Positions 11,708 through 43,115 of a stretch of DNA of 43,115 nucleotides are shown in pieces. Position numbers and translations under genes: made by a program. The notes below the pieces were generated by a model. It worked only from the letters and a program-made list of their open reading frames with translations. It ran no database searches and was not told where the DNA came from. Origin of the DNA: Streptacidiphilus pinicola (GTDB taxonomy: Bacteria; Actinomycetota; Actinomycetes; Streptomycetales; Streptomycetaceae). The stretch covers positions 1-43,115 of the forward strand of contig NZ_QKYN01000012.1 of the NCBI RefSeq assembly GCF_003258295.1, in the 5' to 3' direction. Each line of letters opens with the position of its first letter. Within the stretch, counting starts at the first letter, position 1.

Positions 11708-11727
11708 CACACTGCGAGGGCGGAGGG

Positions 11728-25182: not shown

Positions 25183-25313
25183 AGGCCTTGTACCTGTCAC
25201 GCGGTACATCAACGGGAGCGGAACGGGAACCCGGGAACCCACACTCCCCTTGTCGGTCAACCTGGCTGAGCGCCGCGTTGCGCGGTGTCACCTGTCGCAA
25301 TGGAGGTGAACGA

Positions 25314-26564
25314 ATGAACGAGAACCTGTTGCTGCGGCTGCGACTCCAGAGCGGCATGACGCAGGAGGAGCTCTCCGAGCGCTCCGGAATCAGCGTCAGG
25401 ACCATCCGGAACTTCGAGCGCGGTCTGATCCAAAGGCCGCGCCGCAGCTCGGTGGACATGCTCCTGGACGTGCTGGATCCCGGACTGAAGGAGAAGCTGC
25501 GTTCCGCTCCCATGGACGATCTGGGCATGCCGGTGGGCATGGCCGCGGAGTGGCTCAAGCTGGTCGGGCCCGAGCCCGGCGCCTGGCGCGGCAGCCGCCC
25601 GCCGCGCTCGTCCCTGGTCGGCCGCGATCACGACGTCGAGCTGCTGGGACGGCTGGTGCTGGAGCAGCAGCTCGTCGTGATCACCGGCCCCGGCGGTGTG
25701 GGCAAGTCGCGTATCGCGCTGGCCGTCGCGGAGGCCGTGGCCACCCAGCTCCCGGACGGTGTCGCCGTCGTCGAGCTCGGCACCGTTCCGGGCGAGCGCG
25801 ACCTCGACCAGGACGCGGTCCTGGAGCTCGCCGAGCAGGCCGTGGCCGACCGACTGGGGGAGGAGACGGCGGCCGGCGGCCGCCACCGGATGCTCATGGT
25901 CCTCGACAACGCCGAGCACCTGCCGCAGGCCGGCGCGCGGCTGGTGGACCGGCTGCTGGGCCGCTTCCCCGGGATGCACGTGCTGATGACCGCCCGGCGC
26001 GCGCCGGAACTGGCCGGCGCGGTGCTGTGCGAGCTGGCGCCGCTGGCGCCGCCGGTCGCGGTCGAGCTGCTGCTGGACCGGCTGCGGAGCTGCTGCCCGG
26101 ATCTGGACCTGTCCGCGGAGGGGGAGCGGCTCACCACGCTCGTCGGCCTGCTGGACGGGCTGCCGCGCCTGATCGAGTTCGCCGCGCACCGCCTGCGCAT
26201 GGTGCCGCTGGAGTCACTGCTGACGGACGGTCAGGCCGTGCGCCTGCTCGGGTCCGGCGACGTGCGGACGCTGCCGCACCAGCGCACCCCCGAGGCCAGC
26301 CTGCGCTGGAGCCTCGCGCTGCTCGGCCCGCGCCACGAACGGCTGTTGACGCGGCTGGCCCGCGACGGCGGCGAGGCCGGTTTCCGGGTCGGCGAGCTGG
26401 AGGTCGACCCGGACGAGTTCTCCGAACTGGAGGCCGTCGGACTGCTCGCGGACCTCGCGGAGACCTCGCTGCTCCAGGTCGACCGGGGCGGCCGCTACCG
26501 GTACCGGATGCTCCGGCACGTGCGCGCCTTCCTGGACGACCCCGCGACGCTCGCGACCGCCTGA
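25314..26564 (+). CDS. XRE-type HTH regulator fused to an NB-ARC ATPase
   Basis: A 416-residue protein. The N-terminal helix-turn-helix reads LRLRLQSGMTQEELSERSGI and SVRTIRNFERG. From about 100 a STAND ATPase follows, with FxGR-like SSLVGRDHDVELL, Walker A ITGPGGVGKSRIAL, Walker B HRMLMVLDNAEHL, the MTARR sensor and a winged-helix end (MLRHVRAFLDDP). The usual C-terminal TPR or WD repeat sensor is missing, so the protein is short for this group. GGAGGTG sits 6 bp before ATG 25314. It is divergent from the AfsR-like gene, with promoters in the about 130-bp gap, and is probably a second cluster regulator. Confidence 0.87.
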   Translation: MNENLLLRLRLQSGMTQEELSERSGISVRTIRNFERGLIQRPRRSSVDMLLDVLDPGLKEKLRSAPMDDLGMPVGMAAEWLKLVGPEPGAWRGSRPPRSSLVGRDHDVELLGRLVLEQQLVVITGPGGVGKSRIALAVAEAVATQLPDGVAVVELGTVPGERDLDQDAVLELAEQAVADRLGEETAAGGRHRMLMVLDNAEHLPQAGARLVDRLLGRFPGMHVLMTARRAPELAGAVLCELAPLAPPVAVELLLDRLRSCCPDLDLSAEGERLTTLVGLLDGLPRLIEFAAHRLRMVPLESLLTDGQAVRLLGSGDVRTLPHQRTPEASLRWSLALLGPRHERLLTRLARDGGEAGFRVGELEVDPDEFSELEAVGLLADLAETSLLQVDRGGRYRYRMLRHVRAFLDDPATLATA

Positions 26565-26634: not shown

Positions 26635-27960
26635 TCACACGGCGACCGGCACCACCGACACGACCGGCGCGGCCGGCTCCTCGGTGAGCTCGACGAGCTC
26701 CTCCGCGGGCGTGGCGAGGACCCCGAGGGCGGGCGCGACCATCAGCGCCACCGTCATCGGCACCATCACGACCAGCAGCGCCAGCATCCCGCCCGGCACC
26801 CCGAACAGGGCCACGAACAGGCCGGCCAGCAGCGGGCCGCACCACTCGAGCGCGTAGGCGCCGAAGCGGTTCACCGCGGCGACGCGGCCCAGCAGCCGGT
26901 CCGGCACCAGCCGCATCACGTAGGTCATCAGCACGACGTTGACCGGCACCGTGGCCACCTGGGTCAGGCAGACCACCACGGCGATCTCCCACACCTGCGG
27001 CACCAGGGCGGTGACGGCCAGGCCGACGGTGAACACCGACACCGCGGCGCACAGCAGCGTCCGCGGCCGGAACCGGCGCACGATCGCCGGGGCGACCAGC
27101 GAGCCGACGAAGCCGCCGGCCACCGTCGTCGCACTGACCAGGCCGACCGCGGTGGCGCCGCCGCCCCGGTGTCCGACCAGCGCGATCAGCAGCAGCATGA
27201 AGGCCTGGGCCACCATGTTGAGCACCGAGGCCATCACCACGACGAAGCGCAGGAACGGCTGCCGGCGCACGAAGCGCAGGCCCGCCCCGACGTCCTGGAG
27301 CAGCGAGGTGCGCGGCGCGTCCGCGTCCCGGTCCGGACCCAGCGGGCGGCGGATGTTCAGTGCGCCCAGCGCGGCGAAGACGAAGGAGAGCGCGTCGGCG
27401 CCGAACGGCACCCAGCGGGCCAGGCCGAACAGCACCCCGCCCAGCGGCGCGCCCAGCAGCTGCGCCAGCATGTCCCGGCTCATGGCCTGGCCGTTGGCGG
27501 TGGCCAGCTGCTCCTTGGGGACGATCCGGGCCAGTGCCGGCGTGCTCGCGCCCAGCACGACGCCCGAGAGCAGGCCGCTCAGCAGCGAGGCCGCCACCAG
27601 CGGCGGCAGCGCGGGGTGGTGCCCGCGGGCGAGCACCGCCACCACGGCCAGCGCCGCCGCCTGGGCCAGCGGACCCACCGTCAGGATCGCGCGCCGGGAC
27701 ACCCGGTCGGCCAGCGCGCCGCCCCACAGGGCCGTCGCCACGACGCCCAGCAGGTTGGCGGAGCCGATCAGGCCGGCCTTGCCCACCGAGCCGGTGCTCG
27801 CGAGCACGAGCAGCGGAAAGGCGATCGTGGACACGCTCGTGCCCAGCGCCGAGAGGGTGTTGCCGGCCCACCAGCCCAGGTAGTCGCCGTTGTGCCACAG
27901 CGACCCCGGGGCCGGTTCCGCGACCCCCTCGCTCGCTGTGTCGCTCACTGATTCGGTCAC
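26635..27960 (-). CDS. MFS exporter (EntS/MFS_3-like)
   Basis: A 441-residue permease with about 12 membrane segments. After a polar leader it opens DYLGWWAGNTLSALGTSVST, has the loop 2-3 motif GGALADRVSRRAIL and RIVPKEQLATANGQAMSRD, which are typical of the MFS_3 group that includes the enterobactin exporter EntS and antibiotic resistance pumps. The start is GTG 27960 with AGGAGG 6 bp upstream; the longer frame to 28014 is unsupported. It is divergent from the P450-NRPS operon with 207 bp between starts, so a self-resistance or product-export role is likely. The C-terminus is Val/Glu/Pro-rich. Confidence 0.87.
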   Translation of the reverse strand: MTESVSDTASEGVAEPAPGSLWHNGDYLGWWAGNTLSALGTSVSTIAFPLLVLASTGSVGKAGLIGSANLLGVVATALWGGALADRVSRRAILTVGPLAQAAALAVVAVLARGHHPALPPLVAASLLSGLLSGVVLGASTPALARIVPKEQLATANGQAMSRDMLAQLLGAPLGGVLFGLARWVPFGADALSFVFAALGALNIRRPLGPDRDADAPRTSLLQDVGAGLRFVRRQPFLRFVVVMASVLNMVAQAFMLLLIALVGHRGGGATAVGLVSATTVAGGFVGSLVAPAIVRRFRPRTLLCAAVSVFTVGLAVTALVPQVWEIAVVVCLTQVATVPVNVVLMTYVMRLVPDRLLGRVAAVNRFGAYALEWCGPLLAGLFVALFGVPGGMLALLVVMVPMTVALMVAPALGVLATPAEELVELTEEPAAPVVSVVPVAV

Positions 27961-28167
27961 GGGATCCTCCTGACACGGGTGCGTGCGGTTGCGCCCACCA
28001 CCCTGGGGTCCCACCGGAGCCCCGGACCAGGCACGACCCGGCCGGGTGCCGGTCGTTGCGGCGGCATCGTTCTTGCCGGTGCCACTGCCTGGTGACGGAC
28101 CGTCGGGCGGGCTGGAATCTCCTCATCGCTCACAGCAGGGGAGCGCCGCCAAGCGGAGGTGAGAGGG

Positions 28168-29430
28168 ATGGTTGCCCAGGTGCTGGACCTCGGTGTCGAC
28201 CTGGCCGACCCGGAGACGTTCACGAGGGGCGACCTCGGGGCGTACTGGCGTCGACTGCGCCAGGAGGACCCGGTGCACTGGCACCCGGCCGCGCCGGACC
28301 GCCCGGGTTTCTGGGTGATCAGCCGGCACGCGGACCTGATGGCCGTCTACCGGGACGAGGCCCGGTTCACCTCCGAGCAGGGCAACGTCCTGGTGACGCT
28401 GCTCGCGGGCGGCGACGCGGCCGGCGGCAAGATGTGCGCCGTCACCGACGGCGCGCGCCACCGCGAGGTGCGCAACCTGCTGCTCAAGTCGTTCTCCCCG
28501 CGGGTGCTGGCGCCGATCGCCGAGCGGGTGCGGCACAACACGCTGCGCCGGGTTGCCCGCGCGGTGCTGCTGAGCGAGTGCGACTTCGCCGCCGAGGTCT
28601 CCGAGCACATTCCGATGACCACCATCTCCGACCTGCTCGGGGTGCCCGAGTCGGACCGGCCGTTCCTGGTCGACCGGGCCCAGCGCGCGCTCAGCTCGCA
28701 CACCGCGGGCCAGAGCGAGGAGGACGGCTGGAGCGCCCGCAGCGACATCCTGCTGTACTTCGCGGACCTCATGGAGGAGCGCCGCGGCCACGAGGCCGAC
28801 GACGTGATCAGCGTCCTGGCCAACGCCCGGATCAACGGCGTCCCGCTCAGCCGGGACGAGATCGTGCTCAACTGCTACAGCCTGATCCTGGGCGGCGACG
28901 AGACCAGCCGGCTCACCATGAACGACGTGGTGCACACGCTCGCCGGTGAGCGCGAGCAGTGGCGCCTGCTGCGCGAGGGCGCCGTCGGCCTGGACACCGC
29001 CTGCGAGGAGGCGCTGCGCTGGGCGACACCCGCCATGCACTTCGGCCGCCGGGCCCTGGTGGACGCGGAGTTGCACGGCCGGCTGATCCGGGCCGGGGAC
29101 ATCGTCACCGTCTGGCACTCCGCGGCCAACCGCGACGAGACCGTCTTCGCCGACCCCGACCGCTTCGACCTGGCCCGCACCCCCAACCGGCACGTCGCCT
29201 TCGGCTACGGCCCGCACTTCTGCCTCGGCGCGCACCTGGCGCGGGTGGAGATCACCGCACTGCTGGAGGCGCTGCGGCGGTTCACCAGCGAGATCGAGGT
29301 GGTGGGCGAACCCGCCAGGTTCCACTCGAACTTCCTGGCGGGGTTCAGCCGCCTCCCGGTCAGGTTCACCCGCGACAAGGCCCAGCTGTCGGCCTTCGCC
29401 GCCGAGCTGCGCGCCGACCGCGCCGCCTGA
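28168..29430 (+). CDS. Cytochrome P450 no. 1 (first gene of the NRPS operon)
   Basis: A 420-residue bacterial class P450. It has the oxygen-binding I-helix motif ILGGDETSRLTMND (Gly-Gly-Asp-Glu-Thr), the ExxR pair in EEALRWATPAMHFGRRA, and the heme loop FGYGPHFCLGAHLAR with Cys352 as the iron ligand. No ferredoxin or reductase gene is nearby, so it would use general redox partners. The layout next to an NRPS matches P450s that hydroxylate PCP-bound amino acids (NovI, P450sky type). ATG at 28168 has GGAGGT 7 bp upstream and begins the biosynthetic operon, 37 bp before the synthetase gene. Confidence 0.92.
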   Translation: MVAQVLDLGVDLADPETFTRGDLGAYWRRLRQEDPVHWHPAAPDRPGFWVISRHADLMAVYRDEARFTSEQGNVLVTLLAGGDAAGGKMCAVTDGARHREVRNLLLKSFSPRVLAPIAERVRHNTLRRVARAVLLSECDFAAEVSEHIPMTTISDLLGVPESDRPFLVDRAQRALSSHTAGQSEEDGWSARSDILLYFADLMEERRGHEADDVISVLANARINGVPLSRDEIVLNCYSLILGGDETSRLTMNDVVHTLAGEREQWRLLREGAVGLDTACEEALRWATPAMHFGRRALVDAELHGRLIRAGDIVTVWHSAANRDETVFADPDRFDLARTPNRHVAFGYGPHFCLGAHLARVEITALLEALRRFTSEIEVVGEPARFHSNFLAGFSRLPVRFTRDKAQLSAFAAELRADRAA

Positions 29431-29467: not shown

Positions 29468-32400
29468 GTGAACGTCACCCGCGCCCAGGAGGGGATCCTC
29501 TCCGCCGAGGGACCGCTGGCCGGACAGGCCTCGCCGTTCCACGTGATGGTCAGCGCCCTGATCACCGGACCGCTGGACCGCGACCGGCTCCACGCCGCGC
29601 TGGACCGCGTCACGCGGCGGCACGCCGCCCTGCGCACCGTGTTCACCCGCGACGCCGCGACCGGCGAGCTGGGCAGCCGGGTGCTGACGGAGTGGCGGCC
29701 GACGGTCGTCGAGCAGGAGCTGCCCACGCTGCCGGCGGACGCCGACCCGGTGCGCGTGGTGCACCGGCTGCTGACCCCGACCGCCCCCGCGGTGCTGCGC
29801 CCCTACGAGGCGCCGCCGGTCCGCTTCGTGCTGAGCCTCGCCGGTCCCGGGCGCGCCGTGCTCACCCTGCTCGGCCACCACGTCGTGCTGGACGGCTGGA
29901 GCATCGGCCTGATCTTCGAGGACGTCGCCGCCGGATACGCGGGCGCCACCGACACCGACGAGGTGCCGGGGATGGAGCTGCTGGCCGAGGCCGAACGCAG
30001 CGACGCCGTCGCCGCCCTGACCGTGGAACGCGCCGCGATGCTCGCCGACTGGCCCACCGTCCTCGAACTGCCCTCCGACCTGGACCGGCCCGCGGTCCGC
30101 GACTGCGCCGGCGTCCGGCTGCCGTTCACGCTGACCGACGCCGCCCGCGAGGGCTGCGTCCGGCTGGCCGCCTCCCTGGGGGTGAGCCGCAACGCGGTGC
30201 TGATGGGTGCCTGGGTGCTGGCCGTGGCCCGGCGCACCGGCCGGGACCGGCTGCTGGTCGGCATCCCCACCGTGGGACGCCACTCCCGGGCCGCGATGCG
30301 CGTGGTCGGCGGCGCCACCGGACTCGGCCCCGTCGCCTGCTCCGTGCCGGAGGAGGGGACCGTCGCCGACTACGTGCGGGCCACCGCGAAGTCGCTCCAG
30401 GCGTCCCTGCGGTACGGACGGGTGCCGTTCGAGGACCTGGCGACCGCGCTGACCCGCGGCGGCGACCGGGCCCGCAACCCGCTGGCGCAGATCGCCTTCG
30501 GCGCCCACAGCGAACTGGTACCGACCGGCCTGCCCGCCGGCGAGGTCACCTTCGACCTGCACGTCGGTCACACCGGCGGCACCGCCTACGACGCGATGCT
30601 GCACGCCCTGGTCTGGGACGAGCGCCCCGGACTGGAACTCGAGTACGCCACCTCGGTGCTGACCGCCGGGGAGGCCGCCGACCTGGCCGCCTCCTTCGAG
30701 CAGGCGCTCGTCGAGATGGCCGCCGCACCGGACGGGCCGCTGGCCGCCGTCACCACGGTGACGCCCCGTCAGCGCCGTCGTCTGGACGCGCTGGAGCACG
30801 GCCCCGAGGCCGACGCCGAGGCGGGCCTGTGGCAGCTGATCGAGCAGGCCGCGGCCCGCACCCCCGACGCGCCCGCCGTGCGCGAGGGCGACGGCGCGGA
30901 CCAGACGCTGACGTACCGGCAGCTGCTGGAGGCGGCCGCCGTCCTGTCCGCCCGGCTCTCCGCCGCCGGGATCGGCGCGGGCGACCGGGTGGGCCTCGCG
31001 GTGCGCCGCTCGGCCGCGGAGATCGTCGCCATCGCCGCGGTGCTGCGGATCGGCGCCGCCTACGTGGGCCTGGACCCGGACAACCCCTCGGCGGCCACCG
31101 CCGCCGTCCTTACCGGCGCGCAGGCCACGGTGGTGCTCGGCGACGCCGACAGCCTGGCGGCACTGGGCCCCGCCGCGGCCGGACGGACCCTGCTCGACGT
31201 GCGGGCCGCCGGCGGGCCGGTCGGTGCGGTCCCCGAGCCGGCCCCGGCCGATCCGGACCGGATCGCCTACCTGGCCTTCACCTCCGGCACCACCGGCGCG
31301 CCCAAGGGCGCCATGATCCCCTGCCGCGGTGTGGTCCGGCTGGCCCGTGAGCCGCGCTTCCTGCGGCCCGGGGCGACCGACCGCTTCCTGCGCCTGGCCC
31401 CGCTCGCCTTCGACGCCTCCACCCTGGAGATCTTCGCCCCACTGCTGGCCGGTGGCACCGTCGAGGTCTTCACCGGACGCCACGTCACCGCCTCGGCGCT
31501 GGCCAAGTGCCTGGAGCAGCGCGGGGTGACCGGGCTGTGGCTCTCGGCCGGGCTGTTCCGCCTGGTGGCCGACTTCCGCCCGGAGGCCTTCCGCTCGGTG
31601 CGCCAGCTGCTGACCGGCGGCGACGTGGTCCCGCCCGCGCAGGTCGCCGCCGTGCTGCGGACCTGCCCCGGGCTGCGCGTCAGCAACGGCTACGGACCCA
31701 CCGAGAACACCACGTTCACCACGGTGCACCACGTCGACGACCCGGTCGGCGCCACCGCCTCCGCGCTGCCGATCGGCCGCCCGATCCAGGGCACCGGCGT
31801 CGTGGTGCTCGACCACGCGGGACGCCCGGTGCCACCCGGCGGCGTCGGCGAGCTCTACGCCTACGGCGCGGGACTCGCGGCCGGCTACACCCGGGCACCC
31901 GACGAGACCGCGCTCGTCTTCGGGGAGTTCGGCGGCGCGGCCGCCGGCTGCAGGCTCTACCGCACCGGAGACCTGGTGCGCTGGGACGCCGAGGGCAACC
32001 TGAGGTTCCTCGGGCGCCGCGACCGCCAGGTCAAGATCCGCGGCTTCCGCGTCGAGCCGGACCAGGTGACCGCGGTGCTCCGAGCCCATCCCGAGGTCCG
32101 CGACGCCGCCGTGGTGGTGGTGCCGCTCGGCAACGGCGACCACCAGCTGCTCGCCGCCGTCGTCGGCGCCCGTCCCGGCCTGCTGGACACCCTGCGCGCC
32201 CACGCCGCCGGGCGGTTGCCCGGCCACGCCGTGCCCGGCCTGTGGGTGGAGGTCGAGCAGTTCCCGGTCACCGCGAACGGGAAGCTCGACCACCAGCGAC
32301 TGCGCCTGCTCGCCGCCGAACCGGAGCCCGTCCCCGCGCCGGTCGCCGCACCGCCGCAGCCCGCCCCGCAGCAGCCCGTACCCGGGCAGGCCGGCGACGG

Positions 32401-32635
32401 ACTGGAGGCCGCGATCGCGGACGCCTGGGCCGAGGTCCTCGGCCACCGCGACTTCACCCCGGCCGACTGGTTCTTCGACGTGGGCGGCGACTCGCTGCTG
32501 CTGATCCGCGTCCACTCGATCCTCACCGAGGCCCTGCCCGACCACGAGGTCACCGTGGGCGACCTGTACGCCTGCAGCGCCATCGAGGACCTCGCCGCCA
32601 AGCTCCGGGCCGACGCCCGGCGCACCGCCGCCTGA
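29468..32635 (+). CDS. NRPS, single module C-A-PCP
   Basis: A 1055-residue synthetase. Condensation domain about 1-430 with an intact HHVVLDG (His137, His138). Adenylation domain about 455-945 with A3 FTSGTTGAPKG, A5 NGYGPTENTTF, A7/A8 YRTGDLVRWD and RQVKIRGFRVEP, and A10 NGKLD. Carrier domain about 970-1050 with Ser1009 in VGGDSLLL for phosphopantetheine. It has no epimerase, thioesterase or docking domain. Manual alignment to GrsA gives the specificity code D-A-L-W-L-G-G-T-F-K, two changes from the valine code DAFWIGGTFK, so a branched aliphatic residue is predicted. The GTG start has GGAGGAAG upstream. It sits between P450 no. 1 and the halogenase. Confidence 0.95.
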   Translation: MNVTRAQEGILSAEGPLAGQASPFHVMVSALITGPLDRDRLHAALDRVTRRHAALRTVFTRDAATGELGSRVLTEWRPTVVEQELPTLPADADPVRVVHRLLTPTAPAVLRPYEAPPVRFVLSLAGPGRAVLTLLGHHVVLDGWSIGLIFEDVAAGYAGATDTDEVPGMELLAEAERSDAVAALTVERAAMLADWPTVLELPSDLDRPAVRDCAGVRLPFTLTDAAREGCVRLAASLGVSRNAVLMGAWVLAVARRTGRDRLLVGIPTVGRHSRAAMRVVGGATGLGPVACSVPEEGTVADYVRATAKSLQASLRYGRVPFEDLATALTRGGDRARNPLAQIAFGAHSELVPTGLPAGEVTFDLHVGHTGGTAYDAMLHALVWDERPGLELEYATSVLTAGEAADLAASFEQALVEMAAAPDGPLAAVTTVTPRQRRRLDALEHGPEADAEAGLWQLIEQAAARTPDAPAVREGDGADQTLTYRQLLEAAAVLSARLSAAGIGAGDRVGLAVRRSAAEIVAIAAVLRIGAAYVGLDPDNPSAATAAVLTGAQATVVLGDADSLAALGPAAAGRTLLDVRAAGGPVGAVPEPAPADPDRIAYLAFTSGTTGAPKGAMIPCRGVVRLAREPRFLRPGATDRFLRLAPLAFDASTLEIFAPLLAGGTVEVFTGRHVTASALAKCLEQRGVTGLWLSAGLFRLVADFRPEAFRSVRQLLTGGDVVPPAQVAAVLRTCPGLRVSNGYGPTENTTFTTVHHVDDPVGATASALPIGRPIQGTGVVVLDHAGRPVPPGGVGELYAYGAGLAAGYTRAPDETALVFGEFGGAAAGCRLYRTGDLVRWDAEGNLRFLGRRDRQVKIRGFRVEPDQVTAVLRAHPEVRDAAVVVVPLGNGDHQLLAAVVGARPGLLDTLRAHAAGRLPGHAVPGLWVEVEQFPVTANGKLDHQRLRLLAAEPEPVPAPVAAPPQPAPQQPVPGQAGDGLEAAIADAWAEVLGHRDFTPADWFFDVGGDSLLLIRVHSILTEALPDHEVTVGDLYACSAIEDLAAKLRADARRTAA

Positions 32636-32686: not shown

Positions 32687-33634
32687 ATGTCCAGCAACGA
32701 GTTCTCGCTCAGCCCCGAGCAGATCGCCCAGTTCGAGCGCGACGGCTACATCGGCCCGTTCGACCTGTACGACCCGGCCGAGATGGAGCAGCACCTGCGG
32801 GCGCTGCGCCCCAAGCTGATCAGCACCAAGAAGTCGATCTACAGCGACGAGAAGCAGGCCTCGGCGATCTCCAACTACGACCGCCACTTCGACATCGACT
32901 TCCTGGCCTCCCACGTCACCCGCCCGGAGATCGTCGACCGCGTCTCCTCCCTCCTCGGCCCGGACACCCTGTGCTGGCGCTCCGAGTTCCTGGCCAAGTA
33001 CCCCGGCGACGAGGGCACCGACTGGCACCAGGCCGAGGACTTCTCCAGCCTCACCGACGAGCACACGCCGCAGATCCAGTGGCCGGCCGACTCCGACCGC
33101 CGCGGCACCATCACCGTCTGGACCGCGTTCACCGAGGCCAGCGTCGAGACCGGGGCGCTGCAGTTCATCCCCGGCACCCACAAGGAGATGAACTACGACG
33201 AGACCAAGGGCCTGAGCTACGACCCCGACGTCATCAACAACCTGGAGAAGCAGGGCACCAACCGCGGCTTCTTCGGCTACGACTACCGCCAGCTGCAGAA
33301 GGACCCGAACTGGGCCCCGGACGAGTCCAAGGCCATCTCCGCGGTCATGAAGCAGGGTCAGTTCATCATCTTCTGGTCCACGCTGATGCACGCCTCGCAC
33401 CCCAACACCAGCCAGGACCAGGCCCGCCTGGGCTACTCGGTGCGCTACCTGCCCACCGCCGCCCGGGTCTACCCGGGGCTCACCGAGCTGAACGAGTTCG
33501 GCTCGACCGTCAGCCTCGCCCGCTACGGGGCCGTCCTCACCTCCGGCGAGGACACCTTCCACCACAACACGTTCGTCCAGCAGACCGTGAACGGCTACGA
33601 GTTCCCGGTCCGTGAGATTCGGAGGTCCGCATGA
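32687..33634 (+). CDS. SyrB2-type nonheme Fe(II)/2-oxoglutarate halogenase
   Basis: A 315-residue protein very like the syringomycin halogenase SyrB2 throughout: GYIGPFDLYDPAEM, NYDRHFDIDFLASH, LCWRSEFLAKYPGDEGTDWH, WTAFTEASVETGALQFIPGT, RGFFGYDYRQLQ and QFIIFWSTLMHASHPN. The iron-binding motif is His114-Gln-Ala116, with distal His235 and Arg253 for 2-oxoglutarate. In hydroxylases the third position is Asp or Glu; Ala leaves room for chloride and is the hallmark of halogenases. SyrB2 relatives chlorinate unactivated carbons of amino acids bound to a carrier protein. Its stop overlaps the start of a discrete PCP (ATGA), the probable substrate carrier. AGAGGAAG precedes the ATG at 32687. Confidence 0.95.
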   Translation: MSSNEFSLSPEQIAQFERDGYIGPFDLYDPAEMEQHLRALRPKLISTKKSIYSDEKQASAISNYDRHFDIDFLASHVTRPEIVDRVSSLLGPDTLCWRSEFLAKYPGDEGTDWHQAEDFSSLTDEHTPQIQWPADSDRRGTITVWTAFTEASVETGALQFIPGTHKEMNYDETKGLSYDPDVINNLEKQGTNRGFFGYDYRQLQKDPNWAPDESKAISAVMKQGQFIIFWSTLMHASHPNTSQDQARLGYSVRYLPTAARVYPGLTELNEFGSTVSLARYGAVLTSGEDTFHHNTFVQQTVNGYEFPVREIRRSA

Positions 33635-33903
33635 CCGTGCAGACGACGGGGAGCCGTCCGGCGACCCAGCAGGAGATGGAGCAGTGGGTGGCCGACAGCT
33701 GGCGCGCCCTCGGACTGACCGTGGCGGGTCCGGCGACGGACTTCTTCTCCGTCGGCGGAACCTCGCTCGCCGCCGCGCGCTTCCTGGCCGGCGCGGAGGA
33801 GCTCTTCGGCGAGGACGTGCTCCCGCCCGAGGACTTCTTCGAGGGCAGCTCGGTCGAGGCGGTCGCCGCCCTGATCGTCCGCAACAGCTCCGGCGAGTCC
33901 TGA
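33631..33903 (+). CDS. Discrete peptidyl carrier protein no. 1
   Basis: A 90-residue carrier protein with the phosphopantetheine site FFSVGGTSLAAARF (Ser45) and a four-helix pattern (EQWVADSWRALG, FLAGAEELFGEDV, SVEAVAALIV). It overlaps the halogenase gene by 4 bp, so both are made together. In SyrB1/SyrB2 and related systems the halogenase acts on an aminoacyl carrier protein, which makes this the best candidate for the halogenation platform. No adenylation domain is fused, so it must be charged by the C-A-PCP protein or the stand-alone A protein, or by transfer. Confidence 0.93.
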   Translation: MTVQTTGSRPATQQEMEQWVADSWRALGLTVAGPATDFFSVGGTSLAAARFLAGAEELFGEDVLPPEDFFEGSSVEAVAALIVRNSSGES

Positions 33904-33961: not shown

Positions 33962-35134
33962 GTGGCCGTCCTGGAACGCACCTTCGACCCCGCCGGGCTC
34001 GCCGCCCCCGCGTCCGCGCCCGCGCTGCGCGCGCTGGGCGCACTGCTCCGCGAGGTGGGCTTCGACGAGCACGGCGCCGCCCGTGCCGTCGCGGCCCCCG
34101 CGCCCGACCTGCTGCTGAGCAACTCGGCGCGGTACGCCTTCTTCGCGGACCGTTCCCGCCCCGAGGGGCCGCACGCCGAGGTGGCGCTGCTCACCTCGCT
34201 CTTCGTGCTCAACCGCAGCCTCCCCGCCGACTGGCTGGGCGGCGCCCTGCGACCCGAACTGCTGGACCTGCTACGGGAACTGGAGCTGCTCGACGACGCG
34301 GGCGAGCTCGCCCGCGGCCGGGTCTCGCTGACCCCCTGGCAGGGCCGCTGGTTCCTCGCCGACCGGCTCTTCCACAGCCCCGCCCCGCAGCAACTGGTGG
34401 CCGCGACCGAGCGTGACCTGGTGATGCCGCCGCACGCGTCCAGCCTGCTGGTGCTCGACACGCTCCAGGCGCTGCGCGGCTCCGTGCTCGACGTCGGCTG
34501 CGGCACCGGTTTCCTGGCCCTCAACACCGGCGCCGGGACCGACCGCAGCGCCGGACTCGACCTCAACCCGCGCTGCGTCGCCTACGCCACGGCCAACGCC
34601 GTCCTGAACCGCCGCGACGAGGTGGCCTTCACCGCCGGCGACTTCGCCGACCACACGCTCACCCCCGACCGGCGCTTCGACCACCTGGTCTTCAACGCCC
34701 CCACCCTGCCCAGGATCGACGACGAGGAGGGCGACGGCGAGTTCGGCCAGTCCACCATGGAGTGGCTGCTGCACGCCGCGGTCGCCATGGCCCCCCGGGT
34801 GCTGCGTCCCGGTGGCGGCGCGCACATCCTCGGCATCGTCGAGGTGCCCGCGGACCGGGTCGACGCCGCCGAGACCGTGCGCGACTGGCTGGCCGGTGCC
34901 GACGTCACCGACGTGACCGTGACCGCCCACGACTCCCCGCTGCTGCAGGTGACCCGCCGTCAGCTGGAGCAGCGGCGGCTGCACGGCAACAGCCTCCTGG
35001 TCTACGGGGCCGGACAGGCCCGCCGGCTGCTGGACAGCCTGGCGCGGCGCGGCACCGCGGCCGTGGAGGTCGTGACCATCGGCTTCCGCACGCCGCTGCC
35101 GCCGCCCCAAGAACCGCCGACCGAGAGGCAGTGA
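33962..35134 (+). CDS. Class I SAM-dependent methyltransferase (HemK/RsmC-like fold)
   Basis: A 390-residue protein. An all-alpha N-terminal domain (about 1-155) is followed by a Rossmann methyltransferase with motif I VLDVGCGTGFLALNTG, motif II AGLDLNPRCVAYATANA, and a motif IV region HLVFNAPTLPRIDD. The last resembles the NPPY motif of N-methyltransferases but reads NAPT, so the target atom is unclear. The substrate is probably a cluster intermediate. The GTG start at 33962 follows GAGGGAGGA. It is 58 bp after the carrier protein and only 3 bp before the thioesterase, which implies co-translation. Confidence 0.85.
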   Translation: MAVLERTFDPAGLAAPASAPALRALGALLREVGFDEHGAARAVAAPAPDLLLSNSARYAFFADRSRPEGPHAEVALLTSLFVLNRSLPADWLGGALRPELLDLLRELELLDDAGELARGRVSLTPWQGRWFLADRLFHSPAPQQLVAATERDLVMPPHASSLLVLDTLQALRGSVLDVGCGTGFLALNTGAGTDRSAGLDLNPRCVAYATANAVLNRRDEVAFTAGDFADHTLTPDRRFDHLVFNAPTLPRIDDEEGDGEFGQSTMEWLLHAAVAMAPRVLRPGGGAHILGIVEVPADRVDAAETVRDWLAGADVTDVTVTAHDSPLLQVTRRQLEQRRLHGNSLLVYGAGQARRLLDSLARRGTAAVEVVTIGFRTPLPPPQEPPTERQ

Positions 35135-35137
35135 CCC

Positions 35138-35923
35138 GTGACGACCGATCCCGCCCCGCAGTGGCTCTTCCCGATGCGCAAGCAGCGGGGGGACGCGCCG
35201 CCCGCAGAGGCGCGGCTGCTCGTCCTCCCGTACGCCGCCGCCGGGGCCGCGTCGCTGCGGCCGCTGGTGGCCGGACTGCCGCCCGAGATCGAGGTGCTGG
35301 GAGTCTCCCTCCCCGGCCGGGAGCGCCGTTTCTCCGAGCCGCCGGTCACCGGCCACGACGAGATCGTCGCCGCCGTCACCCGCGAGCTGGCTGCCCGTGA
35401 ACCGCTGCCGACCTGGCTGTTCGGCCACAGCATGGGCGCCAGCCTGGCCCTGGCCTGCGCGCTCGCCGCGCCGGAGCTGTGCCATGGCGTGGTCACCAGC
35501 GCCCGCAAGCCCGGCGGCCTCGCCCTGGAGTCGCTGCGCGGCCTGGACGACGAGGCGATCGTCGGCTTCTTCGGCTCCGTCGGCAACACCGCGCCCAAGC
35601 TGCTGGAGGACCCCTTCTGGCGGGCCCGGCTGATCGAGCTCTTCCGTAGCGACATCGCCCTCGACGAGGAGGTGTCCACCGTGATCGAGGACGCCCCGCT
35701 GCACCTGCCGGTGCTCGCCCTCGGCGGCGCCGACGACCCGTACGTGCCGGCGGCCGAGCTCTCCGCCTGGGAGCGGCGCACCACCGGCGACTGCCGGGTG
35801 GTGGTCCTGCCGGGCGCCCACTTCTACCTGCTCGACCCGGCCAACCGGGAGGCCGTCCAGGACGCGCTGGTCGCCGCGCTGCACTCCGCCGTGCCCGCCG
35901 ACGCCGCCCTGCCGGTCCGCTGA
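35138..35923 (+). CDS. Type II thioesterase (second of three)
   Basis: A 261-residue alpha/beta hydrolase: RLLVLPYAAAGAASLRPLVA, nucleophile elbow LFGHSMGASLALA (Ser in GHSMG), GGADDPYVPAAE and PGAHFYL for the Asp/His part. The GrsT/RifR-type family edits or releases carrier-bound acyl groups. The start is GTG 35138, 3 bp after the methyltransferase stop. It lies in the same operon as the halogenase and discrete PCP; in related systems such a thioesterase frees the modified amino acid from its carrier, a plausible role here. Confidence 0.92.
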   Translation: MTTDPAPQWLFPMRKQRGDAPPAEARLLVLPYAAAGAASLRPLVAGLPPEIEVLGVSLPGRERRFSEPPVTGHDEIVAAVTRELAAREPLPTWLFGHSMGASLALACALAAPELCHGVVTSARKPGGLALESLRGLDDEAIVGFFGSVGNTAPKLLEDPFWRARLIELFRSDIALDEEVSTVIEDAPLHLPVLALGGADDPYVPAAELSAWERRTTGDCRVVVLPGAHFYLLDPANREAVQDALVAALHSAVPADAALPVR

Positions 35924-36070
35924 CCTGCCGGTCCGCCGACCGACCGGCAGCCCGTACCGCCGGGCGCCGCGGCCGAGTTGCCTGTTCGTTGCCTGGGAGC
36001 AGGGGGTGACGCGACAGCAGAATCGCCGAGGCGCACGAAGCCCGTCCACGACGAACCAAGGAGGCAGAAC

Positions 36071-37096
36071 GTGGTCGCAGCCCATCCGTCCGCTGACGGT
36101 GATGCCCTGCTCGACTGGAACGAGAGCCCGATCGGCCCGCCGCCGCTGGCCGTCAAGCGCGTCGTGGACGCGGCGGACCGCCTGCACCGCTACCCGCGCG
36201 GCCTGCTGGAGGAGGTGACCGCCCTCGCCGCCGCCCACCACGGCGTCGCCACCGACCAGGTGCTGCTGATGGCCGGCGTGGACGAGGCCATCGACATGAC
36301 CCTCTCGCTGGCCGACCGGGCCTTCGGCCTGGTGCCCGGCTTCGACGGCTACCCGGACCGCGCCGCCGCCAACGGCAAGGCCTTCCACCCGATCCCGCTC
36401 GACGCCGACTGGCAGCCGCGCGTCGGGGTACCGGCGGGTCTCGGCTCCGACGACATCGTCTACCTGGCCCAGCCCGGCAACCCCACCGGCAACCTGTTGT
36501 CACCCGCGTGGATCGACACGCTGCGGGAGACCGCGGGGTACGTCTTCGTCGACGAGACCTACCAGGAGTTCTCCTCCCAGCCGGGCATCCTCGCCCGCAC
36601 CGGCGGACCGCAGCCCGGACTGCTGGTCTACCGCAGCTTCTCCAAGGCCGCCGGCCTGGCCGGGATCCGCCTGGGCTGCCTGGTCGCCGAGGCGCGCGTG
36701 ATCGCCCGACTGGAGCCGCTGCGCCGCTTCATGCCGATCGACGCGGTCAGCCTGCACGCGGCGGCCGGCCTGCTGGAGGAGCCCGCGTTCATGACCCGGC
36801 TGGCGCACTACGTCCGCGAGGGCCGCGCCGAGCTGTGCGGGCTGCTGCGTGGCAGCGGCCTGTTCGCCGAGGTCCGCGAGTCGGAGACCAACTTCGTCCT
36901 GGCCCGCCCGGACGCCTCCGTGCACGCGGCGCTCGCCGCGGTGCTCGCCGAGGACGGGGTCAGGGTCCGCGACTGCTCCGGCGTCGGCCTGGCCGGCTGG
37001 CTCCGCATCAGCGTCGGCACCCCCGAGGACCACGACCGCCTCGGCCACAGCCTGGACCGGCTCGCCCGCTCGCACGCCGAGCGCGCGGCCGCCTGA
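36071..37096 (+). CDS. PLP-dependent aminotransferase (class I/II, HisC-like)
   Basis: A 341-residue fold-type I aminotransferase: LDWNESPIGPP at the start, HRYPRGLLEEV, the AQPGNPTGNLLSPAW loop, FVDETYQEFS with the cofactor Asp, and the Schiff-base lysine in YRSFSKAAGLAGIRLGC. It ends with LRISVGTPEDHDRL. The family interconverts amino acids and 2-oxo acids; it is not part of a histidine operon here. GTG at 36071 has AAGGAGG 6 bp upstream. The next gene is a likely 2-oxo-acid C-methyltransferase, so the pair could deaminate, beta-methylate and re-aminate an amino acid. A 147-bp gap precedes it and may hold an internal promoter. Confidence 0.9.
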   Translation: MVAAHPSADGDALLDWNESPIGPPPLAVKRVVDAADRLHRYPRGLLEEVTALAAAHHGVATDQVLLMAGVDEAIDMTLSLADRAFGLVPGFDGYPDRAAANGKAFHPIPLDADWQPRVGVPAGLGSDDIVYLAQPGNPTGNLLSPAWIDTLRETAGYVFVDETYQEFSSQPGILARTGGPQPGLLVYRSFSKAAGLAGIRLGCLVAEARVIARLEPLRRFMPIDAVSLHAAAGLLEEPAFMTRLAHYVREGRAELCGLLRGSGLFAEVRESETNFVLARPDASVHAALAAVLAEDGVRVRDCSGVGLAGWLRISVGTPEDHDRLGHSLDRLARSHAERAAA

Positions 37097-37177
37097 GACA
37101 GCACCCGCACCATGCACCGCCATCCCGACCACGCACGGCAATCCGCACGTATCCCACACCCGAGAGGTGAATCCGTC

Positions 37178-38224
37178 ATGGCCATTCTCACCGACGACCT
37201 CGAGCGCCGTCTGATCGACAACACCCAGCCCGTCCGCTTCTTCTTCCTGGCCCAGGCCCTGCATCACGCGATGCACGTCGGCCTGTTCGAGGCCCTGAAG
37301 AAGGAGCCGGGCGCCACCGCGGAGACGCTGGCCGAGCAGCTCGGCCTCGACGCCTACCGCACCGGCGGCCTCCTGCGCTACCTGCGCAACGAGGGCTACG
37401 CGGTGTTCGAGGACGGCGGCTGGACCATCAGCGGCAAGGCGCTGGAGGTGCTCCCGTTCGCCCCCTGGTACGAGATGATGGTCGGCGGCTACGCGCCCTC
37501 CATGGACCAGCTCGGCGACATCCTCGCGGATGGCACCCGCTACGCCACCCGCAACACCACCAAGGTCGGCGAGGGCAGCTGCGGCATCGGCGCGCACGAC
37601 GCGCTGCCGCTGGTCGAGCAGATCCTCGACCCGGCCGCGGTGAACCGTCCGGAGACCATCGTCGACCTCGGCTGCGGCGACGGCAGCTTCCTGATGGACC
37701 TGCTGGTGGCCCAGCCCGACCTGCGCGGTCTCGGTCTCGAGCCGAACGAGGGCTCCGTGGTGCTCGGCGAGCGCCGCCGCGCCGAGCTCGGCCTCGAGGG
37801 CCGGGTCGACCTGGTCCAGGGCGGCGCCGCCGACGCGCTCACCCTCGACCTGCCGGAGAACGGCCGCGGCATCTGCTTCATGACCGCGTTCGTGCTCCAG
37901 GAGGTGCTGCAGCAGGAGGGCGAGGAGTTCGTCGAGAACCTGCTCAAGCAGACCTTCGAGCGCTACCCCGAGGCCCGTTGGCTGGTCGTCGAGATGGACC
38001 ACCAGCCGCTCTCCCCGGTCATGGGCAGCCACGGCCTGGCCCAGACCTTCTACAACCCGTACTTCCTGATCCACCACATCACCGAGCAGCGGCTGCAGAC
38101 CCGCGGCTGGTGGGAGGAGCTCTTCGAGCGCCTCGGCCTGACCGTCGAGGCCTCCGCCAACCCCGACCCGCGCGCCGACTCCACCGGCCTGCAGTTCGGT
38201 GTCCTGCTCTCGAAGAAGGCCTGA
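37178..38224 (+). CDS. SAM methyltransferase resembling 2-oxo-acid C-methyltransferases (MrsA/MppJ-like)
   Basis: A 348-residue protein with an N-terminal helical/winged dimerisation domain (about 1-115: QALHHAMHVGLFEALKKEPG, GLLRYLRNEGYAVFEDGGW) and a Rossmann core with motif I IVDLGCGDGSFLMDLLV and LGLEPNEGSVVLGE. Stretches such as YATRNTTKVGEGSCGIGAHD, VVEMDHQPLSPVMGSHGLAQ, FYNPYFLIHH and DSTGLQFGVLLSKK resemble what I recall of 2-ketoarginine methyltransferase MrsA; phenylpyruvate methyltransferase MppJ is more distant. Those enzymes methylate the beta carbon of a 2-oxo acid and are paired with an aminotransferase, as here. The exact substrate is open. ATG at 37178 follows GAGGTGA; the frame to 37112 is unsupported. 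It is the last gene of the plus operon. Confidence 0.8.
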   Translation: MAILTDDLERRLIDNTQPVRFFFLAQALHHAMHVGLFEALKKEPGATAETLAEQLGLDAYRTGGLLRYLRNEGYAVFEDGGWTISGKALEVLPFAPWYEMMVGGYAPSMDQLGDILADGTRYATRNTTKVGEGSCGIGAHDALPLVEQILDPAAVNRPETIVDLGCGDGSFLMDLLVAQPDLRGLGLEPNEGSVVLGERRRAELGLEGRVDLVQGGAADALTLDLPENGRGICFMTAFVLQEVLQQEGEEFVENLLKQTFERYPEARWLVVEMDHQPLSPVMGSHGLAQTFYNPYFLIHHITEQRLQTRGWWEELFERLGLTVEASANPDPRADSTGLQFGVLLSKKA

Positions 38225-38357: not shown

Positions 38358-40457
38358 TCAGCGCGCGGCGCGCGCCGTCGCGGCGAGCGCCTTGCGGTCG
38401 ACCTTGCCGTTGCGGGTGAGCGGGAAGCTCTCCACCACCGTCCACAGCGCGGGCACCATGTACGACGGCAATTGCCGCTCCAGCGCGAGCCGCAGCGCCA
38501 CCGGGTCGGCACCCGCCTCCGTCGCGGGGACGACCGCGGCGACCAGACGCTTGCTCGCGCTGTCCGCGCCGACGGCGAAGACCAGCGCGTCCTGCACGCC
38601 CGGCACCCGGGCGAGCACCGCCGCGATGGCGGCCGGCTCGACGCGGTAGCCGCGCAGCTTCACCTGGTCGTCCGCGCGGCCGAGGAACCGCAGCCGGCCG
38701 CGCCCGTCCAGCCGGACCAGGTCCCCGGTCCGGTAGAGCCGCTCCGGAACGTCCGGCGAGAAGCGGCCGAACCGCCGCGCCGTCTCCTCCGGATCGCCCA
38801 GGTAGCCGGTGGCCAGCCCGTCGCCGGAGGTGTACAACTCGCCCACGGCGCCGGGCGGCAGCAGTCGGCACCGGTCGTCGAGCACGTACACGCGGGTACC
38901 CGGCACGGGCACGCCGATGGGGAGCGGGCCGTCCACGTCCGCCGGGTCGGCGACCGAGTGGGTGGTGGTGAAGGTGGTGTTCTCGGTGGGTCCGTAGCCG
39001 TTGGTGACGACCAGGCCCGGGTGCTCCTCGAGCAGCCGGGCCACGTGCTGGTGCGGGACGACGTCGCCGCCGGAGAGCACCTGCCGCAGCCCGGCGAGCG
39101 AGCGCGGCGCGAACTCGGCGAGCAGCCGGAACAGTCCGGCGGTGAACCAGGCGACGGTGACGCCGCGTTCGACGAGGAAGTCGCCCAGCTCGGTCGGGGA
39201 GGGCAGCGGCTCGTCGTAGACCTCCAGGGTCGCGCCGGTGAGCAGCGCGCCCCACAGCTCCAGCGTGGAGGCGTCGAAGGCCAGCGGCGACAGCCGCAGC
39301 ACCCGGTCGCCCGGCCCGAGCCGGACGTAGTCGGCGCCGTGGACCAGCCGGACCACGCCGCGGTGCGGCACGCAGACGCCCTTGGGCTCCCCGGTGGAGC
39401 CGGAGGTGAAGGCCACGTAGGCGAGGCGGTCGCCCGCCCCGGACGGCAGCGCGGGCACCTCCTCGACGCACTCCTCCCAGCCCGGGACCCATACCGGAAC
39501 CGCCGGAACGCCCGCCGGGGCCTCGTCCCGCGGGCCGTGCAGCACGGCCGTGGGACGGCACTTGGCGACGATGCGGGCCAGGTGCGCGGCCGGCGCGCCG
39601 AGATCGACGCCGACGTAGGCGGCGCCGGCCAGGGCGATGCCCAGCACGGCCACCGCCTCCGCCACGGACCGGTCCAGTCCGACCAGCACGGTGTCGCCGG
39701 GCCGGACCCCGGCCTCGGCCAGCAGGCGGGCCTGGGCCGTCGCCGCCCGCTCCAGTTGACGGTAGGTCAGTTCGGTGTCGCCGTGGCGGACCGCGACGGT
39801 GTCCGGCAGCCGGTCGGCGACCTGCCGGAACAGCTGCTCCAGCGGGGCGTCGGGGAAGTGCCGGCCGGTGTCGTTGACCGCGGCCAGCCGTGCGCGCCGG
39901 TCCGCGGAGACGGCCCGGACGTCCTCCACCGGCCCCGAGGCGCCGGCCAGTTCGGCGGCGGCCGCGAGCAGGTCGGCGGCGAATCCGGTGAGCTCTGCCT
40001 CGGTCCAGACGCCCGCGCGGCAGGCCAGCGAGCCGGAGCGGTCCGTGCCGCGCCAGTCGGCGCGCAGCGCGACCTCGACGCCGTCCCCGGGCTCCGCGTC
40101 CGGACCGAAGGCGGCACGGGCCTCGCCCGCGTCGCCCGCAGCCTCAACGGCCGGGTCGCGCAGCAGGCGTTCGGTGGCGGCCAGCAGGTCGTCGGTGCCG
40201 CGCTCCTCCTGGATCTCGACGTCGAGGGTGCCCGTGCCGCAGCGCACCGGCACGATCCGGCACCCGGTCCAGCGGGTGAGCGTCACCGCGTACGCGGCGA
40301 GCAGCAGGGCGTCGGGCCCGACGCCGAGCTTGGCGCAGCGGGTGGCGATCTCCGCCCGCAGCCGCGCGTCCGGGTCCACCAAAGCCCTCAGGGCCGGGCC
40401 TCCCGAGGAGGCCTGGCCCTGAAGGTCGGTGGGGAAGTCCATACGGTCTTCCGCCAT
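38358..40457 (-). CDS. Stand-alone adenylation protein with a truncated condensation domain
   Basis: A 699-residue protein. Residues about 20-185 match only the C-terminal half of a condensation domain (GVGPDALLLAAYAVTLTRWT, then WTEAELTGFAADLLAAAAEL, RRARLAAVNDT); the half with HHxxxDG is absent, so it cannot condense. Residues about 190-690 are a full adenylation domain: A3 FTSGSTGEPKG, A5 NGYGPTENTTF, A7 YRTGDLVRLD, A8 DQVKLRGYRVEP and A10 NGKVDRKAL. The specificity code by manual alignment is D-A-L-W-L-G-G-T-F-K, identical to the C-A-PCP protein. It starts 3 bp after the discrete PCP stop and probably charges that PCP. It is the last gene of the minus operon. Confidence 0.92.
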   Translation of the reverse strand: MAEDRMDFPTDLQGQASSGGPALRALVDPDARLRAEIATRCAKLGVGPDALLLAAYAVTLTRWTGCRIVPVRCGTGTLDVEIQEERGTDDLLAATERLLRDPAVEAAGDAGEARAAFGPDAEPGDGVEVALRADWRGTDRSGSLACRAGVWTEAELTGFAADLLAAAAELAGASGPVEDVRAVSADRRARLAAVNDTGRHFPDAPLEQLFRQVADRLPDTVAVRHGDTELTYRQLERAATAQARLLAEAGVRPGDTVLVGLDRSVAEAVAVLGIALAGAAYVGVDLGAPAAHLARIVAKCRPTAVLHGPRDEAPAGVPAVPVWVPGWEECVEEVPALPSGAGDRLAYVAFTSGSTGEPKGVCVPHRGVVRLVHGADYVRLGPGDRVLRLSPLAFDASTLELWGALLTGATLEVYDEPLPSPTELGDFLVERGVTVAWFTAGLFRLLAEFAPRSLAGLRQVLSGGDVVPHQHVARLLEEHPGLVVTNGYGPTENTTFTTTHSVADPADVDGPLPIGVPVPGTRVYVLDDRCRLLPPGAVGELYTSGDGLATGYLGDPEETARRFGRFSPDVPERLYRTGDLVRLDGRGRLRFLGRADDQVKLRGYRVEPAAIAAVLARVPGVQDALVFAVGADSASKRLVAAVVPATEAGADPVALRLALERQLPSYMVPALWTVVESFPLTRNGKVDRKALAATARAAR

Positions 40458-40460: not shown

Positions 40461-40721
40461 TCATCCCTCCAGCAACGCGGCCTGGCCGCGCACCGTGCCG
40501 GCCCGCAGCACGTCCATGGTGCGCACCGGCACGCCGGTGGCCTGGCGGATCCGCTCCACCAGGGCCACCAGCAGCAGCGAGTCGCCGCCGGCGTCGAAGA
40601 AGTTGGTGTCCTGCGGTACCGACTCGGTGTCGGCGGTCTCGAGGACCTCCGCCCACAACGAGCGGACCAGGGCGATCCGGTCGTCGGCGGTGGCGATGCC
40701 GGCCAGAAGGGGCTGCGTCAT
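40461..40721 (-). CDS. Discrete peptidyl carrier protein no. 2
   Basis: An 86-residue carrier protein with the phosphopantetheine motif FFDAGGDSLLLVALV (Ser48) and normal flanking helices (RIALVRSLWAEVLE, VERIRQATGVPV). Its ATG overlaps the P450 stop by 4 bp (ATGA) and it lies 3 bp before the adenylation gene. The P450-PCP-A arrangement is that of systems which load an amino acid on a dedicated carrier and hydroxylate it there (novobiocin, nikkomycin, skyllamycin precedents). Confidence 0.93.
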   Translation of the reverse strand: MTQPLLAGIATADDRIALVRSLWAEVLETADTESVPQDTNFFDAGGDSLLLVALVERIRQATGVPVRTMDVLRAGTVRGQAALLEG

Positions 40722-42760: not shown

Positions 42761-42967
42761 TCAGGCCGCGTGGCCGTGCTCGGCGGTCGGCGCCAGGCCG
42801 GACCAGCGGGCGAGCACCAGCTGCGGGTCGCCCTCGGCGAGGTCCCGCAGCAGCGCGGCGACCTGGTCCGCCCCGCGCACGCTGCAGACCCGTCGGCAGC
42901 GGTAGGTGATGAGCACGACGTTCTCCTCGGAGTGCCGTTGGTAACCGAAGTACGGTGGACGGTTCAT
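42761..42967 (-). CDS. Small protein of unknown function
   Basis: A 68-residue protein (MNRPPYFGYQRHSEENVVLI, CRRVCSVRGADQVAALLRDL, PQLVLARWSGLAP) with two cysteines in YRCRRVCS. It is in the position and size range where MbtH proteins occur, but none of the MbtH signature (NPFDD, SLWP, GW, W..MRP) is present. It lacks a signal peptide. The ATG at 42967 follows AGAAGGC. It is 16 bp upstream of the thioesterase start and in the same operon, so it is likely a pathway protein of unknown role. Confidence 0.6.
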   Translation of the reverse strand: MNRPPYFGYQRHSEENVVLITYRCRRVCSVRGADQVAALLRDLAEGDPQLVLARWSGLAPTAEHGHAA

Positions 42968-43022: not shown

Positions 43023-43115
43023 TCAGACGGTCTGGACCTCGCGCACGGGTGCGACGGCGGGCTCGGTTGTCGGCACCGACGTCGGGCCGGTGATCCGCAG
43101 GAACCTCAGCACCGG
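43023..43115 (-). CDS. C-terminal fragment of an unknown protein (cut by window edge)
   Basis: An open frame enters from the right edge and ends at TGA 43025-43023 with 30 codons visible: PVLRFLRITGPTSVPTTEPA and a VAPVREVQTV end. The Pro/Thr/Val-rich tail is not diagnostic. It lies 55 bp upstream of the small-protein gene on the same strand, so it probably belongs to the minus operon. The cluster therefore continues beyond this window. Confidence 0.5.
   Translation of the reverse strand, partial: PVLRFLRITGPTSVPTTEPAVAPVREVQTV

Follow-up and report, generated by a model that had tools for sequence, protein, structure and literature searches.

A predicted carrier-dependent aliphatic halogenase beside a discrete carrier protein in a truncated NRPS cluster of Streptacidiphilus pinicola

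The window described here, a stretch of 43,115 bp from Streptacidiphilus pinicola, is a complete contig (C22), and the gene cluster that it carries is therefore cut off at the right end (Table 1). The sequence-only reading that preceded this work had placed an NRPS cluster at this position, which is correct as far as it goes, the cluster being a partial one; it had also rightly listed two P450s, three thioesterases and an aminotransferase beside a methyltransferase, while leaving out a second methyltransferase (MTa). Ahead of the cluster, a set of tetrapyrrole genes at 2121-8574 (+; glutamyl-tRNA reductase, porphobilinogen deaminase, a methylase/HemD fusion and ALAD) forms a housekeeping flank, and two chaplin-domain genes (ChpA-C) at 11308-11712 (-) and 12634-12972 (-) encode ordinary streptomycete surface proteins. 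Related clusters were compared from two congeners, G004 (putatively Streptacidiphilus jeojiense) and G013 (putatively Streptacidiphilus sp. PB12-B1b), and from one other genome of the order, G045 (putatively Actinospica robiniae).

Table 1. Features of the cluster in the window, with the evidence on which each assignment rests.
Feature	Position	Strand	Evidence
TE1, type II thioesterase (GHSLG)	20503..21273	+	PF00975, 130.6 bits
SARP-type regulator (BTAD, NB-ARC, TPR)	21910..25260	-	Pfam
HTH-AAA regulator, start approximate	25311..26564	+	matches in G004, G013, G045
MFS exporter	26635..28014	-	PF07690, 127.2 bits; matches in G004, G013, G045
P450a, close to P450sky	28159..29430	+	564.5 bits to 4l0e
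NRPS module C-A-PCP; A code DALWLGGT	29468..32635	+	Pfam, motif reading
Fe(II)/2OG carrier-dependent halogenase	32687..33634	+	ATG, 315 aa; H114, A116, H235, R253
Discrete PCP, 90 aa, FFSVGGTSL, Ser45 codon at 33763	33631..33903	+	PF00550, 36 bits
MTa, PrmC-like class I methyltransferase	33962..35134	+	Pfam, NCBIfam
TE2, type II thioesterase with Ser (GHSMG)	35138..35923	+	Pfam, motif
AT, HisC-like aminotransferase (may in fact start near 36071)	35978..37096	+	TIGR01141, 193.3 bits (cut-off 276.55)
MTb, 2-ketoarginine-type alpha-keto-acid C-methyltransferase	37112..38224	+	TIGR04543, 363.6 bits (cut-off 425)
Stand-alone A domain, about 200 extra N-terminal residues, DALWLGGT	38358..40457	-	motif/alignment
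P450b, nearest P450sky	40718..42004	-	222 bits
TE3, type II thioesterase (GHSLG)	42001..42744	-	PF00975, 112.4 bits
Small conserved ORF, 68 aa, family not assigned	42761..42967	-	61% to G004
Frame truncated by the contig end (final 30 codons), at the place of the G004 antiporter	43023..43115	-	position relative to G004

Both congeners keep the gene order of the window except for MTa, which is absent from both and likewise has no match in the G045 cluster, and for the SARP gene, which is matched in G004 (78%) and G045 (57%) and was not found in the G013 stretch. MTa, which lies between the PCP and TE2, may be either an addition in the window strain or a loss in the relatives. Identities of TE1 are 79% to G004, 67% to G013 and 59% to G045, those of TE3 86% and 72% to the two congeners, and those of P450b 89% and 79%; G045, which holds most of the gene set in a rearranged order, offers just a 35% match to P450b, at the place of P450a, and no counterpart of P450b, TE3, the small ORF or the window-type stand-alone A domain. 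The small ORF sits between the antiporter and TE3 in G004, is matched in G013, and has no match among the NCBIfam models.

The halogenase gene is served by the ribosome-binding site AGAGGAAG, and its reading frame has a GC3 of 0.98. Its product scores 408.7 bits (E 1.2e-122) against the TIGR01762 'chlorinating enzyme' model, for which the cut-off is 226.3, a match far beyond chance, and the open reading frames of both the halogenase and the PCP are present as previously described. The iron-site residues named in the sequence-only reading can be read directly in the codons, with CACCAGGCC at 33026-33034 giving His114-Gln115-Ala116, CAC at 33389 giving His235 and CGC at 33443 giving Arg253. H114, Q115, H235 and R253 are invariant in a 32-row halogenase alignment, and A116 is conserved in at least 90% of its rows; the AlphaFold model made from this shallow alignment is weak (mean pLDDT 60.5). 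The claim that the protein follows SyrB2 closely stands in so far as SyrB2 scores 376 bits (E 1.7e-111), but the top solved relative is CytC3, with a slightly higher 390 bits (E 9.1e-116). The family score, the His-x-Ala motif with its distal His and Arg, and the carrier protein encoded alongside support the assignment of a carrier-dependent Fe/2OG halogenase beside a discrete PCP in an NRPS cluster.

That the protein is mainly a hydroxylase acting on a tethered residue is a reading that we consider highly improbable. The PhyH fold is common to hydroxylases (Pfam), residues near the iron site are altered in the clade to which the window protein belongs, and norvaline is described in the portion of PMC4019311 consulted as shifting SyrB2 toward hydroxylation; set against these are the Ala at the third facial position, the TIGR01762 score and the kinship with CytC3 and SyrB2. 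A hydroxylase instead of a halogenase is unlikely on the HQA motif and the TIGR01762 match. The same portion of PMC4019311 records that exchange of the SyrB2 Ala for Asp or Glu abolished halogenation and gave no hydroxylation.

The start of the PCP gene overlaps the halogenase stop codon as ATGA (junction GCATGACC), which bears out the ATGA coupling noted earlier. Halogenase and PCP occur together in G004 (92/85% identity), G013 (80/52%) and G045 (65/56%). Among eight further halogenase loci, each fetched with about 20 kb (19.9 kb), four (L074-L077, from Kitasatospora and Streptomyces, halogenases 65-67% identical) carry Hal, PCP, TE and A within 4 kb, a layout which argues that this cassette is a recurrent unit near such halogenases. 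At the other four no PCP match lies near the halogenase, with a threshold of E 1e-12 for L078 and L079 and of E 1e-10 for L022 and L023, which are more distant; L079, L022 and L023 equally lack a TE match nearby. Not every halogenase of the family, then, has a free PCP next to it. No A domain of the cassette type was observed next to the Hal, PCP and TE genes of the window, which is cut at the contig end; the stand-alone A domain lies 4.5 kb away, on the opposite strand, and is separated in sequence from the A domains of L074-L077 and G045.

The specificity codes of the A domains were read by motif and alignment rather than by a trained predictor. Both A domains of the window, of G004 and of G013 read DALWLGGT, which we take to be a Val-like code; elsewhere DAFFLGVT was read in L074-L076 and in the stand-alone A domain of G045, and DAFFLGVV in L077. 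In a tree of 13 A-domain rows, from which CytC1 was left out, the stand-alone A domains of the window, G004 and G013 group with the A domains of the C-A-PCP modules, apart from the cassette A domains and the locus L031; support for this split is 99/98 for the rest of the domain and 91/96 for the core, where the split is not starred. Mean identities of the window's stand-alone A domain (N-part/core/C-part) are 43.5/53.0/50.1% to module A domains and 38.9/41.7/42.9% to cassette A domains. A subdomain swap, in which part of a module A domain had been inserted into a cassette A domain, was considered and rejected, as the core and the rest of the domain group alike. Although the first A domain of L031 reads DALYLGGI, close to the code of the window, the tree places it on a long branch on the side of the cassette A domains. 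The DALWLGGT code shared by the two A domains of the window favours a Val-like substrate; from the earlier list of candidate substrates (Val, Ile, Leu, Abu or Thr), a Val-like chlorinated residue fits better than Abu or Thr.

A second departure from the relatives concerns the halogenase pocket. In a 70-row tree (quick method, SH-aLRT support, no bootstrap) the window halogenase falls into a 14-row clade, supported by an SH-aLRT of 100 and set off by a stem of 0.36, made up of the window, P0001-P0011, G004 and G013; as P0006 and G013 are identical, 13 sequences are distinct. A residue signature was taken from the best 120 of 1962 halogenase hits (E <= 1e-30), in which the eleven nearest sequences were set against the other 109. 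Position 102 is L in eight, V in one and F in two of the eleven nearest, and F in all 109 others; position 117 is E in ten and D in one, against D in 109 of 109; position 121 is S in nine and G in two, against N in 105 and S in four; and position 251 is S in nine and A in two, against A in 108 and V in one. By alignment these positions correspond to F104, D119, N123 and A252 of SyrB2, and 117 and 121 closely follow the HQA motif. CytC3 has Ala and His at the places of 117 and 121, so that these two sites vary anyway, and P0009 and P0011, although among the eleven nearest, retain F102 and A251. The pocket changes run parallel to the difference in A-domain code (DALWLGGT against DAFFLGVT/V). Relatives of MTb apparently pair three times with halogenases of the new clade (contigs of 17628, 35978 and 36207), and apparently also with an ordinary-pocket halogenase, P0062 (contig of 13249); judged from these contigs, MTb does not track the new pocket. 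One member of the clade on a long branch, P0010, carries Val at position 116 (HQV).

It is reasonable to expect, with good though not full confidence, that this SyrB2/CytC3-type halogenase performs carrier-bound chlorination on the adjacent discrete PCP, and the enzyme very probably replaces hydrogen by chlorine at an unreactive C-H position of an amino acid tethered to a protein. Whether the substrate is a Val-like aliphatic residue loaded by the stand-alone A domain is a question on which we judge the chances to be about evenly balanced. In this scheme the stand-alone A domain would load the amino acid onto Ser45 of the PCP, chloride would bind at the iron site opened by Ala116 to give a chloroferryl, and the latter would abstract hydrogen from an unactivated carbon of the PCP-bound substrate before chlorine rebound, the chemistry being taken over from the family. 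Excerpts of PMC8407142 and PMC4019311 describe the chloroferryl, hydrogen abstraction and chlorine rebound on PCP-bound substrates, and SyrB2, CytC3 and BarB are stated in the former to act on tethered substrates. The radical chlorination foreseen in the sequence-only reading is well supported by homology, while the enzyme class itself is common. Thereafter a type II thioesterase such as TE2 would release the chloro-aminoacyl group by hydrolysis, or the group would move on to the peptide assembly line, where the most likely acceptor would be the C-A-PCP module just upstream, and the chlorine would be retained in the product. Another possible target of the stand-alone A domain, in place of the free PCP, is NRPS2, a synthetase known from the related clusters and described below, whose C-T end has no A domain of its own.

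Retention of the chlorine is the step at which an alternative enters, namely that the halogenation is cryptic and chlorine is later lost through ring closure, elimination or an epoxide, leaving a final peptide without Cl. This would be compatible with PCP-bound chlorination and incompatible with a chlorinated product. Cryptic chlorination is established for LrgH of largimycin (sections of PMC9396626) and for CurA, CmaB, KtzD and JamE (sections of PMC8407142). Among the Pfam matches for the scanned ORFs of the window, whose cluster is itself cut off, there was no KtzA-like (acyl-CoA-dehydrogenase-like) or CmaC-like partner that would form a cyclopropane as in the kutzneride/coronamic acid type. 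We regard a cryptic role as unlikely.

The genes for PCP, TE2, AT and MTb are consecutive in the window (with MTa between), G004, G013 and G045, and TE2 carries Ser. An arrangement of this kind invites a further alternative, in which chlorination and the action of AT and MTb fall on one and the same residue, TE2 releasing it, AT forming the keto acid, MTb methylating C3 and AT restoring the amino group. MTb nonetheless scores 218 and 216 bits against the 2-ketoarginine methyltransferase structures 8rvc and 8r4z (the same protein twice), and at most 30 bits against all other PDB methyltransferases, and its Asp356 is kept in 96 of 97 relatives. A copy of TE2-AT-MTb is also present in S. fulvorobeus (L031), at a locus near a contig start where the 19.3 kb fetched gave neither a halogenase nor a PCP match, which argues that TE2-AT-MTb is a separable unit. 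In light of these observations we hold the one-residue route to be rather improbable. The kinship with 2-ketoarginine methyltransferases and the L031 copy likewise lowered the related idea that AT and MTb make a beta-methylated aliphatic substrate for the halogenase.

We therefore return to separate residues for the halogenase and for the AT/MTb pair. AT and MTb probably make 3-methylarginine for another position of the peptide, so that the pair reported earlier is present but probably serves an arginine-derived residue and not the chlorinated one. The score of MTb on the 2-ketoarginine methyltransferase equivalog model of NCBIfam lies below the cut-off (Table 1), and AT, at 39.5 bits, stays well under the cut-off of 350 for the model of beta-methylarginine aminotransferase; against 3p1t it scores 152.9 bits. 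The start of MTb is probably at 37178, giving 348 aa as in P0121. The solved structures 8rvc/8r4z are presumably MrsA, and 8ftr/8ftv presumably SgvM. A DSTGL stretch near the C-terminus of MTb aligns to the DSTGL of 8rvc/8r4z. SgvM F329 and T331 lie in a substrate-covering loop according to part of PMC10502145, whose main text does not contain the codes 8rvc/8r4z or 8ftr/8ftv, and we infer that this loop corresponds to the DSTGL stretch of MTb (D356). A search with MTb gave 10 loci, of which L030 and L031 match near full length and the other eight over 33-67 residues. In L031 the TE2-AT-MTb genes adjoin proteins that read, from sequence alone, as glutamate-mutase-like. The L031 relative of TE2 (6441-7250) has GHCMG, with Cys where the TE2 of the window has Ser; this Cys we assume to be as in the SyrC/CmaE acyltransferases.

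The remainder of the assembly line would lie beyond the contig end, where G004 and G013 add an antiporter, NRPS1, an Fe/2OG beta-hydroxylase, an SDR and NRPS2, the hydroxylase appearing to be of the arginine type. NRPS1 of G004 is a T-C-A-T-C-A-T-C-A-T protein of 3370 aa and NRPS2 a C-A-T-E-C-T protein of 2108 aa (E putative) whose last module is without an A domain, both from Pfam counts and motifs; in NRPS1 of G013 the first of these T motifs could not be located. Pfam scans in the relatives covered these two G004 NRPSs and NCBIfam scans two G045 genes, other genes being assigned by eye. The A domain of NRPS2 reads DVWHFSLV, presumably a Ser code, in G013 and G045, and deviates from it in G004. 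The beta-hydroxylase of G045 scores 327.9 bits against GntD (L-enduracididine beta-hydroxylase; cut-off 345) and 255.7 bits against VioC (cut-off 418.6), and its solved relatives include arginine beta-hydroxylases. For P450a, 4l0e stands well ahead of the next distinct sequence (303 bits), which indicates kinship with P450sky. The parts consulted of PMC4758615 equate 4L0E with Sky32/P450sky, which beta-hydroxylates three residues, and those of PMC5238595 count Sky32 among the aminoacyl-PCP hydroxylases.

G045 holds much the same gene set together with an ordinary halogenase pocket and a stand-alone A domain reading DAFFLGVT, which suggests that members of a single peptide family may differ in the residue that is chlorinated. 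In the C-A-PCP module of G045 (L021 18.5-19.9 kb, minus strand, into L029) the FD..S Asp and the YGPTE motif are lost (GFGSPQN) in an intact frame; the A domain of this module is probably dead and served in trans.

Several characterised systems resemble the locus in part. CytC1-CytC4 of Streptomyces (gamma,gamma-dichloroaminobutyrate) share the halogenase family and a carrier protein, and their gene set, as we understand it, has discrete A, PCP and TE as in the window; the window halogenase, in contrast, belongs to a multimodular NRPS cluster with P450s, methyltransferases and an aminotransferase, differs from CytC3 at residues 117 and 121, and is accompanied by a stand-alone A domain that reaches just 236 bits to CytC1. 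SyrB1/SyrB2/SyrC (4-chlorothreonine, syringomycin) likewise employ a 2-His halogenase on a PCP-bound amino acid, but the PCP of SyrB1 is fused to its A domain whereas that of the window is discrete, the A code of the window is not Thr-like, and TE1-TE3 all carry Ser, where the active-site residue of SyrC is reportedly Cys. The barbamide type, with two halogenases and Leu activation, does not apply, as the whole assembly (8.43 Mb, 281 contigs) has one halogenase match and the A code of the window is, we believe, unlike Leu codes. L074-L077 have the same four functions, but their A domains differ in code and tree position, and the 19.9 kb fetched gave no match to MTb, AT or P450a at E 1e-12. The skyllamycin cluster has in common P450sky itself, to which P450a is close (564 bits); to our knowledge it has no halogenase and a different NRPS layout. 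As the sequence-only reading maintained, we know of no match between the neighbours in the window and the syringomycin, barbamide, cytotrienin or kutzneride clusters. No open-PMC paper pointing to this cluster was found among titles and abstract starts, and neither 'halogen' nor 'chlorin' occurs in the main text of PMC7601586, a study of Streptacidiphilus genome mining.

The enzyme type and its mechanism are already known, while the surroundings of the active site and the likely loading partner appear changed relative to the relatives, and the substrate and product are probably new for the halogenase family. We put forward tentatively, as a proposal with an appreciable but less than even chance, that a Streptacidiphilus subclade has remodelled its pocket for an amino acid unused by characterised members, that its loading A domain, once of the cassette type, was exchanged for one related to the module A domain, and that the peptide would unite a chloro-aliphatic residue, 3-methylarginine and a beta-hydroxylated arginine-type residue. 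We are aware of no described natural product with this combination. Judged from the complete cluster, which can be seen in the relatives alone, the peptide would contain several unusual residues. Carrier-dependent halogenases place chlorine on unactivated carbons, a task that chemistry does poorly, and the parallel shift of the A code and four halogenase positions offers a testable case of substrate-scope change, for which G045 provides a natural control as the ordinary-pocket counterpart in a related cluster.

In partly overlapping genome samples, halogenase matches (E <= 1e-60) were found in 36 of 394 genomes of the family, and MTb relatives (E <= 1e-30) in five of these 394, three of them (the window's own genome, G004 and G013) at 74-100% and two at 41-45%. 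At E <= 1e-40, four of 392 Streptomyces genomes carry an MTb relative (one at 73%, three at 37%), as do four of 197 genomes of the order (G045 at 76%, three at 41-45%). The halogenase family is common, and the cluster of the window is rare.
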